A DNA stretch of 64,000 nt from Gammaproteobacteria bacterium (GTDB taxonomy: Bacteria > Pseudomonadota > Gammaproteobacteria > Pseudomonadales > JAUIET01). Numbering within the stretch: position 1 is the first letter of the stretch; each line of letters starts with the position of its first letter. Below, piece after piece: positions 43,398 to 46,591 of this stretch. Under the pieces are notes generated by a model that ran no database searches, had not been told where the DNA came from, and saw nothing but the letters and a program-made list of their open reading frames with translations. A program made the position numbers and the translations under genes. The stretch covers positions 62,001-126,000 of the forward strand of contig JAUIET010000003.1 of assembly GCA_030429735.1 (NCBI GenBank). Reading direction: 5' to 3'.

Positions 43398-44660
43398 TCA
43401 GTGCCGAACCTTGGCAGCTTGGGCAGGCTTCTCTGTTGCTGCCAGGAGTTGCTTACCAACCTTGTTGGCGATAGGTTCAGCGCGATAATTGCGATGCCCA
43501 GGCACATACGATGCTACCAATGGAACCGGCTGTAGAAACATGCATATGTCACAAAGGTCTGCTTCCTCAGCGGCCTGGCGAACATGTGCGGATATGGCTT
43601 GCGCTGTTTGTGCATCCCGAACCGACCGGACAATGGCATATTCCTTGTTGATTTTCGCACCCGCGAGTTCGCAGCCTTCTTCGTTCGCTGCGAAGCGGGC
43701 GTGGCTTATTTGCATGCCCGTAGCGCCGGCCGCCAACATCATCTCGATGAGTTGTTCCACATCGTCACGATCTACCACCGAACAAACACTTACCATGTCT
43801 TTGCGGTAGTTCTGCCGGCAACGCTTAGCCCGCGCCTGCTGGCGACTGCTTTGAACAGCGCTATACGCGCTTTGGTCGCGCCAGTGGGTATGCCCGGACA
43901 AATTGTCGATCGCCGTGATGATTTGCTGCATGTTCGCCTCATAGGCGTGTGCACTCGAACGGCTTGGCAGATTGAACATGCCTCGCGCCAGCGGCATCAT
44001 GAACATGTAGCCACGACCAGGCAGATGCATTTCCGCCGCATTGGCCATAGCGCTGAACACTTCTCTGGAGCGGCCTTCATCCACCAATACGGTAAGAATT
44101 TCCTTGTCGACCTGTTTTGTAATGCGCAGCCAACCAAGATGATCACGCAAACCATGCCCTTCCCCGTAGAAAACGATGGGGCCGTGCGCCCCGGCAGCGA
44201 TGGCCGCTTTGCTGACTGCTCGCGTCTGGTCACGCTCCACAACGCAATAAATCACGCTTAGATCTTCCTTCAAATCCAGCAGCCCAAGGTGCGATTGTTC
44301 TTGCTCGGGTAATGCATCTACAGGCCAGTCATGAAACGCGGACCCTGCCCACACATCGTCACAAGCACTGGCAAACACAGCGCCCGCACCTTGCTGATGC
44401 AACCGACCTTTCTCGATAACGATTGCAATCGCGGTATCCAGCTGCGCAGTCGGAATCAGTAATTGCAGCATTACTTTGGCAGGACTGATGGTCGGTAACA
44501 TTTGCCGATACCACTTATCATGCAATAGCGTTCCTCTCGCGTTCCATAACAACGCGCTGGTTCCTGGGGATTCGATCAAAGACGCAATCACCACGTCAGC
44601 GTATTGCTGCGGCAGGATTGCCGTGAGCTCAGACAATCCTTGTTCAGAATGCGTTTTCAT
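43398..44660 (-). CDS. Protein with three tandem PII-like domains
   Basis: A 420-residue soluble protein. I read three repeats of a PII/GlnK-like ferredoxin fold: about residues 10-105, 134-230 and 288-385. Repeats two and three show it best: a first strand ending in ER or DR (IYCVVERDQ, VCSVVDRDD), a helix to AAGAHG or AAGATG, a T-loop-like segment before ITKQVDKEILTVLVDEG or INKEYAIVRSVRD, a second helix, and a C-terminal strand (GRGYMFMMPLARG, ICMFLQPVPLV). Normal PII is about 112 residues and trimeric, so this may be a single-chain trimer. The start overlaps the DUF1538 gene stop (ATGA), which links the two products. Ligand unknown. Confidence 0.8.
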   Translation of the reverse strand: MKTHSEQGLSELTAILPQQYADVVIASLIESPGTSALLWNARGTLLHDKWYRQMLPTISPAKVMLQLLIPTAQLDTAIAIVIEKGRLHQQGAGAVFASACDDVWAGSAFHDWPVDALPEQEQSHLGLLDLKEDLSVIYCVVERDQTRAVSKAAIAAGAHGPIVFYGEGHGLRDHLGWLRITKQVDKEILTVLVDEGRSREVFSAMANAAEMHLPGRGYMFMMPLARGMFNLPSRSSAHAYEANMQQIITAIDNLSGHTHWRDQSAYSAVQSSRQQARAKRCRQNYRKDMVSVCSVVDRDDVEQLIEMMLAAGATGMQISHARFAANEEGCELAGAKINKEYAIVRSVRDAQTAQAISAHVRQAAEEADLCDICMFLQPVPLVASYVPGHRNYRAEPIANKVGKQLLAATEKPAQAAKVRH

Positions 44661-46591
44661 GACACCACCGCCTCAGCCACTGGCTCTTCTTCTGTATCAT
44701 CTGCTGATAACTCGTCGTTCTTACTGGTCATCAGGCCTACCGCTAACACCGTCATAATGGGGCCAACAGATGCCAGGGCAAGAATGCCAAAACCGTCGCT
44801 CACCCCCGGGATGTTGCCCCCAATTCCAAGGCCCATCGCAAGCACAAGCGGTACCGTGATCGGACCAGTAGTGACACCGGCACTGTCCCAGCCGAAATTA
44901 ACAAAGTCCTCTTTTGAAAACCAGGTGAGTAGCAACACAACCATGTAAGGTGGTACCAGCATCCAGATCAAAGGTAAGTTGTAGGCGATTTTGCAAATGC
45001 CAGCTGCAATACCGAAACCCACACCAATGGCTACGCATTGCATCAGCAATGGCTTGCGAAACGCACCGACCGTGATTTTTTCTACCGTATCACCCAGGGC
45101 ATTCAGCGCAGGCTCAGCCAGTGTGGCACCATAGCCCAGGAAGAACGCAAATAAGATAGCAACCAGCTTACCGGTGTGCTCTGACTCGAACAGTGGCCCT
45201 TCTGCATACTTCATCCCCCAGGGAGTTATTTCTGCGAAGCTTACTGGAACATTTCCGCCGAGTTGCCCCCCCAAAGGCATCAGACCCAGCGCAATACCCA
45301 GGCCAAATAAGCTCATGCCAATTACCGCAAACAAAATTCCGGCCTGCAGCTCTTCGGCACGGTGCAGTGGCTGCTTAAGTACGAAGCGCTGTACGAAGAA
45401 CAGGAAGAGGCACAGCGGTACAATCGCTCTTAGCGCATCGAAAACAGCGGTCTTGGCCTGCTCCGCCAAAGACAAATTGCGATCCCAGCTTTCGTCACTG
45501 AATGCGTGGAAGGTTCGTTCGGATTGCTTGAAGATTCGTACCTCCGGGTTCTGCAACACCAATGCGCCATCAACCAGTTCACTGTCACTGGCGCTAAAGC
45601 TAACGTCGTAGCCATCCGGCAGCTCGCCTGTTTCCAGGTAGCGTTGATACTCGGCCTCACTGACTTTTTCCGGTGGCCGACGTAGCAGTTGGCTGGCATT
45701 GTCATCGCCAACGAGTATTGCCTCACCCGCTGAACTTTCCAGCGAACTTATCAGCTCACCCCGATAGTGTTCCCCACCGTAATAATCCTCGACGTTGTAG
45801 TGGTACAAGGCCAGTAGCAGAACTGCAAGAATGGGAAACAAGGAGGCCAGCGTAACAATGCCAAATCCGGCGTTGTGATCTGAGCCGGAATTGACGATAC
45901 GACACACTCCGATACCCAGAGCAAGCACCAGTGGGACTGTCACCGGACCCGTGGTAACCGCACCACAATCCCAGGCCAAACCAAGAATATCGTTCAGTAA
46001 GCTTGTCTGGCTGAAGTATATGGACAGGCCCAACAGAAGACTGACCGCCGGTATCGCAAGGTATTTGAGAGACCAGCCATAGAAGAAACGCAGCACACCC
46101 AGCAGTACCGCCAACCCGACGCCGACACCAACGGCGCTGACCAGTTCACCCGAGAAGTCATTCAACAAACTGTACAGTAGCGGCGCGGCTTCGGGCTGTA
46201 CCCCGGCTCCCGCGGTTTTCAGAACAGCGATGGCAGGCTCGGCAAATGTGGCTCCGAGGCCCAGTAGAAAAGCGAAGCCGAGGATCAGTACCATGTTGCC
46301 GCTGCGCGGCAGTACCACACCAATGGCTTCGCCAAGTGGCATCAGGCCAACCCGCAGGCCTTCCATAAAGAACATCAGCCCAAGCGCAACAACACCGATC
46401 CCAACCGCAATCATCGCGGAGTAAACAAGTGGTAGATGCAGTACCAGCAATTGAAACAGTATCAGATACGCGACTATGAACCAGATGCTTTTTAACTGGT
46501 CAGTCAAATTACGCTTTGCGTAGGGCAGTAGTAGCCGGTAAGTGTCGCGCCAACCGAGCGTCAATCGGTTGGAATGGGAGTGTGTGCTCAT
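44657..46591 (-). CDS. DUF1538 integral membrane protein, tandem-repeat form
   Basis: A 644-residue polytopic protein with two DUF1538 repeats. Each repeat carries matching motifs: GLRVGLMPLGEAIG and LGIALGLMPLGGQLG, GLGATFAEPAI and GYGATLAEPAL, and WDCGAVTTGPVTVPLVLALGIG and WDSAGVTTGPITVPLVLAMGLG. A hydrophilic insert of about 110 residues (about 262-370) separates the repeats. From memory, two-gene DUF1538 proteins of Halomonas (UmpAB) were reported as sodium/proton antiporters; here both halves are fused. I use the ATG at 46591 (AAGGA upstream) over a TTG eight codons earlier. It is coupled to the triple-PII gene. Confidence 0.88.
   Translation of the reverse strand: MSTHSHSNRLTLGWRDTYRLLLPYAKRNLTDQLKSIWFIVAYLILFQLLVLHLPLVYSAMIAVGIGVVALGLMFFMEGLRVGLMPLGEAIGVVLPRSGNMVLILGFAFLLGLGATFAEPAIAVLKTAGAGVQPEAAPLLYSLLNDFSGELVSAVGVGVGLAVLLGVLRFFYGWSLKYLAIPAVSLLLGLSIYFSQTSLLNDILGLAWDCGAVTTGPVTVPLVLALGIGVCRIVNSGSDHNAGFGIVTLASLFPILAVLLLALYHYNVEDYYGGEHYRGELISSLESSAGEAILVGDDNASQLLRRPPEKVSEAEYQRYLETGELPDGYDVSFSASDSELVDGALVLQNPEVRIFKQSERTFHAFSDESWDRNLSLAEQAKTAVFDALRAIVPLCLFLFFVQRFVLKQPLHRAEELQAGILFAVIGMSLFGLGIALGLMPLGGQLGGNVPVSFAEITPWGMKYAEGPLFESEHTGKLVAILFAFFLGYGATLAEPALNALGDTVEKITVGAFRKPLLMQCVAIGVGFGIAAGICKIAYNLPLIWMLVPPYMVVLLLTWFSKEDFVNFGWDSAGVTTGPITVPLVLAMGLGIGGNIPGVSDGFGILALASVGPIMTVLAVGLMTSKNDELSADDTEEEPVAEAVVS

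Follow-up and report, generated by a model that had tools for sequence, protein, structure and literature searches.

A fused DUF1538 transporter and a triple PII-like protein as a candidate signal-gated cation/proton antiporter

Introduction

PII proteins are homotrimers, and PII-type control of transporters is known from GlnK, which docks on AmtB, and SbtB, which docks on SbtA. The window studied here, a stretch of 64,000 nucleotides from a gammaproteobacterial genome (assembly GCA_030429735.1, contig JAUIET010000003.1), carries a gene for a DUF1538 membrane protein whose end overlaps the start of a gene for a PII-like protein, and this raises the question of whether a DUF1538 transporter is likewise under PII-type control, and if so what it carries and which signal its partner reads. 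The DUF1538 transporter family, the PII regulator family and the control of transporters by PII are all already known. In the open-licence literature we found no description of a DUF1538-PII operon as a general unit or of a single-chain triple PII, and no DUF1538 or UmpAB report that draws a link to PII; anyone looking through annotated genomes could see the co-occurrence itself.

A previous sequence-only reading of this locus had called the transported species unknown, which at the level of the family is out of date, since work published in 2017 demonstrated Na+(Li+,K+)/H+ antiport by UmpAB of Halomonas zhaodongensis, a DUF1538 pair (PMC5484666). UmpA and UmpB are separate DUF1538 proteins of seven transmembrane (TM) segments that form a hetero-dimer, their antiport has a pH optimum of 9, and E. 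coli lacking its antiporters is rescued by umpA and umpB alone (PMC5484666). Moreover, DUF1538 is one of the top 20 gene families that a machine-learning study lists for growth pH (PMC13255231), in keeping with a role in pH balance.

Results

The ATGA in which the DUF1538 stop and the PII-like start had been said to overlap is present (Table 1), and a TTG 24 bases upstream of the DUF1538 start could serve as an alternative start, giving 652 aa. Because the upstream neighbour on the same strand encodes a DUF349 protein and the gene on the other flank, a Rieske oxygenase, is convergent, the DUF1538 and PII-like genes look like a two-gene unit. The four-base overlap is kept in three of the four other triple-PII loci measured (L086, L088 and L089), with a 97-base gap in its place in L087, and is also present at many loci with a single PII gene. 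Such an overlap suggests an operon and possible translational coupling of the two genes, but the earlier statement that the products are made in step goes beyond it where equal amounts are meant. At another triple-PII locus (L161, 3202-5090) a break between 4671 and 4704 splits the transporter reading frame, a result of either sequencing error or decay.

Table 1. Features of the DUF1538-PII gene pair, in positions of the window
Feature	Position	Strand	Basis
Fused UmpA-UmpB-like DUF1538 transporter, 644 aa, 14 predicted TM segments	44657..46591	-	Pfam, NCBIfam, hydropathy
UmpA-like half, residues 29-262, invariant E118, R168, D208	45806..46507	-	NCBIfam, residue conservation
Acidic linker between the halves, residues 263-381, conserved DYYG	45449..45805	-	Charge count, TM count
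UmpB-like half, residues 382-621, invariant E493, D569	44729..45448	-	NCBIfam, residue conservation
ATGA stop/start overlap of the DUF1538 and PII-like genes	44657..44660	-	Sequence; same in L086, L088, L089
Triple PII-like protein, 420 aa	43398..44660	-	Pfam P-II and singles-only profile
PII-like domain 1, residues 8-112, conserved T-loop ARGT...W...P and GxG B-loop	44325..44639	-	14.3 bits; 11 triples
PII-like domain 2, residues 130-236, best conserved, motif EGRGLRDRLGWLRIT	43953..44273	-	64.9 bits; conservation
Connector of domains 2 and 3, residues 242-262, AIDxLxG...WRD	43875..43937	-	Conserved across 11 triples
PII-like domain 3, residues 286-392, degenerate loops, weakly conserved	43485..43805	-	18.4 bits; 5/107 positions conserved

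To what extent the pairing reaches beyond this genome was read from 399 genomes that sample the phylum. DUF1538 is present in 126 of these and the PII-like subfamily in 129, with both in 122 and only one of them in 4 and 7, respectively (Fisher p ~4e-88, with genomes treated as independent and relatedness ignored). Positions were listed for 95 DUF1538 loci (with four of the PII positions read from the locus sequences instead), and at 90 of these a PII-like gene lies no more than 3 kb away, in most cases overlapping or separated by at most ~50 bases, whereas five have none nearby; the operon expected of a PII-gated transporter, a PII-like gene together with a transporter gene, was thus found at 90/95 loci and in 122/126 genomes. 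The sequence-only reading had stipulated beforehand that a pair confined to close relatives would tell against it, and the pairing proves to be conserved well outside them.

Three arrangements were observed. The first combines one PII gene (encoding a single PII of ~116 aa) with either a short fusion or separate umpA and umpB genes, the second is a longer fusion with a short linker and an N-terminal extension followed by two tandem PII genes, and the third, that of the window, a fusion with a linker of ~100 aa and one triple-PII gene. This last type is present in 11 genomes from 10 families of the class, the triple PII each time directly behind the fused transporter, and is sporadic within families (1/15 genomes in the family of G480 and 1/22 in that of G468). 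In the DUF1538 tree the split and short fusions fall on one side and the tandem and triple types on the other, the triples forming one group with support of 91/93; in the PII tree each domain of the triple proteins forms one group, as do the tandem B genes. The fused transporter with a single-chain triple PII is a derived form of a phylum-wide system. A scan of the genome contigs with the 420-aa protein alone returned one locus only. At one locus (L040, 2496-6687) two full DUF1538-PII sets adjoin, a fused transporter with its PII and then a PII ahead of a split umpA-umpB.

The window transporter belongs to DUF1538 (PF07556), which matches two stretches of the 644-aa protein at 369.2 bits (cut-off 22.6). 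Its N-terminal half is matched by the NCBIfam model of UmpA (NF041627) at 235.9 bits and its C-terminal half by that of UmpB (NF041628) at 178 bits, which lie below the respective cut-offs of 490 and 500 and place the protein outside the UmpAB equivalogs as these models define them. None of 151 genomes sampled from a related family exceeded the UmpA cut-off either, and the UmpA/UmpB models are therefore narrow. Hydropathy predicts 7+7 TM segments, and the internal pseudo-twofold symmetry that had been proposed is supported. The N terminus is positively charged and seven TM segments precede the linker, which in the window protein has ~119 residues and counts 10 K+R against 24 D+E, so that by the positive-inside rule the acidic linker is probably on the periplasmic side. 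It is specific to the triple-PII class, where the linker is ~100 aa long versus ~20 aa in the tandem-PII class. Searches of the PDB with the single sequence and with a DUF1538 profile found no solved DUF1538 relative, and the viral contigs searched contain no DUF1538 relative; AlphaFold models of the two proteins reached pLDDT 37 and 33 from alignments with one homologue each, too low for use.

Among 34 divergent DUF1538 proteins from both clades, E118, R168, D208, E493 and D569 never vary. The E/D pair is present once per half, as expected for a pseudo-twofold ion path, and these invariant acidic residues may represent the ion sites. The window transporter is likely a sodium/potassium-proton exchanger of the DUF1538 (UmpAB) family, antiport by so divergent a protein being extended to it from UmpAB. 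Its substrate could differ from that of UmpAB, because it scores below both cut-offs and a very long branch separates it from the characterised type. In the alternative built on this, the regulated transporter is real and the divergent clade, in which the fused DUF1538 has a triple PII or a pair of PII genes as its partner, moves something other than Na+, K+ or Li+ and protons. The long branch between this clade and the UmpAB-like one and the scores well under the cut-offs favour it, as does the coexistence of both transporter types in one genome (L044/L078, L079), which suggests different jobs; however, the motifs AEPA and (W/Y)D..GVTT...VTVPL together with their acidic residues are invariant in both halves and across both clades, and we consider a change of substrate unlikely.

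As to the partner, Pfam P-II (PF00543) matches the 420-aa protein once, at residues 137-225 (38.3 bits, cut-off 25), so that domain 2 alone is a P-II member by Pfam; a PII-like partner encoded beside a pseudo-twofold transporter, as first described, agrees with these matches. A profile derived solely from the single-domain PII-like proteins that other genomes encode matches the chain three times in order, at residues 12-103 (14.3 bits), 133-225 (64.9 bits) and 291-366 (18.4 bits), while the best score among 200 shuffled copies of the protein was 6.7 bits. Domains 1 and 3 are detected only with this profile of close relatives, and the triple-PII architecture, also part of the sequence-only reading, is upheld by it. 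Searching the PDB with either single sequence yielded nothing useful, and a profile of the small PII relatives led to GlnB/GlnK. A solved 105-aa ‘P-II family’ protein present in 12 copies (PDB ID 9p1x, chain H) matches the profile of DUF1538-associated PII proteins with E 2e-8. Two other readings were considered and set aside: HisG_C scores 22.8 bits on domain 3, under its cut-off of 23.5, and we read this as a distant match of a shared ferredoxin-like fold rather than as HisG; and a descent of domain 1 from the second tandem PII gene (B) is not supported, since a profile of B fits this domain no better than that of the first gene (A). On the PII tree domain 1 groups with domain 2 with weak support.

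Few parts of the regulator are as well conserved across the 11 triples as the T-loops of domains 1 and 2, which keep 7/23 and 11/23 positions; the T-loop of domain 3 keeps 1/23, and for this reason domain 3 seems to serve as a filler, closing the ring. We read domain 3 as mainly structural, with domains 1 and 2 retaining the conserved loops. As PII proteins are homotrimers and this chain has three PII domains, the 420-aa protein would be a single-chain pseudo-trimer. One could suppose instead that domain 2 alone is functional and that the chain forms a homotrimer or a mixed oligomer through it, considering that domain 3 is degenerate and hardly conserved, that domain 1 scores low, and that the sister clade has two separate PII genes behind its transporter, which would allow mixed trimers. 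Against this, the number of domains equals the number of subunits in a PII ring and recurs in 11 proteins, and the loops of domain 1 are conserved across the triples; we consider it unlikely.

The residues Q39, K90, R101 and R103 and the T-loop tyrosine of canonical PII are absent from all three domains and from the single-domain relatives, as judged by PDB profile alignments and by alignment to the canonical PII that the genome of the window encodes. The T-loop itself is ~5 residues shorter than the canonical one and is without the tyrosine that is modified there. In canonical PII the missing residues hold 2-oxoglutarate and the phosphates of ATP, and with these ligand residues gone the signal of the PII-like protein probably differs from ATP/2-oxoglutarate.

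Members of the DUF1538-associated PII subfamily were also seen in other settings. At one locus (L103, 3716-8212), which has no DUF1538 in the vicinity, such a gene is flanked on either side by a Na+/H+ exchanger gene (PF00999), a context that hints at cation/proton exchange as the shared theme. At seven loci from several families (L118, L119, L120, L124, L131, L135 and L136, 9766-10128) its neighbourhood includes a glutamate-cysteine ligase gene and frequently an argB-like amino-acid kinase gene as well, and at another (L122, 554-3182) the tail of a malic-enzyme-like gene overlaps it, while in that genome the DUF1538 pair stands elsewhere without PII. The subfamily is thus not used only with transporters, as some of its members stand beside metabolic genes. 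The genome of the window (G000) holds two further arrangements of interest: on contig C2 an SbtA-like transporter gene (PF05982, 369 bits) is directly followed by one for a 98-aa PII-like protein (L005, 499-1785), apparently an SbtA-SbtB-type pair outside cyanobacteria, and on contig C17 an RND pump gene is followed by a DUF3240 PII-like gene (L007, 3-1791). With the pair of the window, this genome therefore has three PII-like proteins beside transporters, besides its canonical PII.

Discussion

We suggest, with a probability of about one half, that the pair is best explained as a monovalent cation/proton antiporter of the UmpAB type with a dedicated single-chain triple-PII regulator that docks on the transporter and restrains it. 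UmpA and UmpB, fused in one chain of 14 TM segments, would exchange monovalent cations for protons, and the three fused PII domains would fold as a cytosolic pseudo-trimer. This regulator would sense a cytosolic small molecule in pockets other than the canonical ATP/2-oxoglutarate sites, and the conserved T-loops of its domains 1 and 2 would dock on the transporter from its cytosolic side and keep ion exchange in check until the signal lifts the restraint. The gating, the ligand, the stoichiometry, the binding and the direction of control are what we infer here. More tentatively, and with somewhat less confidence than in the explanation just given, the single-chain pseudo-trimer with its three non-equivalent domains may be the dedicated gate of a fused UmpAB-type antiporter, and the DUF1538-PII operon a phylum-wide class of signal-gated antiporters whose signal is not ATP/2-oxoglutarate.

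We count in favour of a gated antiporter the co-occurrence in 122/399 genomes and adjacency at 90/95 loci, the persistence of the window form in 11 genomes of 10 families, the PII gene between Na+/H+ exchanger genes (L103), the SbtA-like/PII-like and RND/PII-like pairs in the genome of the window, the invariance of E118, D208, E493 and D569 in 34 proteins, the antiport shown for UmpAB, and the conservation of the T-loops in domains 1 and 2. On the opposite side we count the five DUF1538 loci without a nearby PII and the subfamily members beside metabolic genes. In E. coli UmpAB works with no partner co-expressed; transport therefore does not require the PII-like protein, and restraint is likelier than obligatory activation. 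E. coli has PII proteins of its own, GlnB and GlnK, which makes this argument a weak one. The least probable alternative is that the PII-like protein is a separate sensor or assembly factor merely co-transcribed with the transporter, or relays the ion or pH state to other targets, as the five lone DUF1538 loci, the heterologous activity of UmpAB and the relatives beside amino-acid kinase, glutamate-cysteine ligase and malic-enzyme-like genes might suggest, and it sits poorly with the tight phylum-wide adjacency and with architectures that change together, the long-linker fusion always being found with a triple PII and the short-linker, N-terminally extended fusion with tandem PII.

If the gated antiporter is real, cation/proton antiport, and hence pH and salt balance, would join the short list of transport processes under PII control, and DUF1538 would gain a regulatory side beyond the work on UmpAB. 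The single-chain triple PII is also a practical tool, as its three PII sites can be mutated one at a time, which is impossible in a natural homotrimer, and how many loops are needed to hold the transporter shut thereby becomes directly testable.

Compared with UmpAB, the window transporter similarly has two DUF1538 halves of seven TM segments each, UmpA-like first and UmpB-like second, with both models matched; however, its halves are fused in one chain by a long acidic linker and score below both cut-offs, and a PII gene follows it, whereas the UmpAB paper mentions no PII partner (PMC5484666). Similar to GlnK-AmtB, a PII-type protein is encoded beside a membrane transporter, and domain 2 is a Pfam P-II member, but the window protein is without the canonical Q39, K90, R101, R103 and T-loop tyrosine, carries three domains in one chain and goes with an unrelated transporter. 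As in SbtB-SbtA, the gene of a small PII-like protein directly follows that of the transporter, and the same genome has an SbtA-like/PII-like pair of its own (L005); by Pfam, however, DUF1538 is not Sbt_1, and the PII subfamily of the window is a different one. Lastly, the PII-like genes of the DUF3240 type behind RND metal pumps (PII-NG-like), of which this genome also has an example (L007), likewise follow the gene of a cation exporter, although both the PII subfamily (DUF3240) and the class of transporter differ from those described here.
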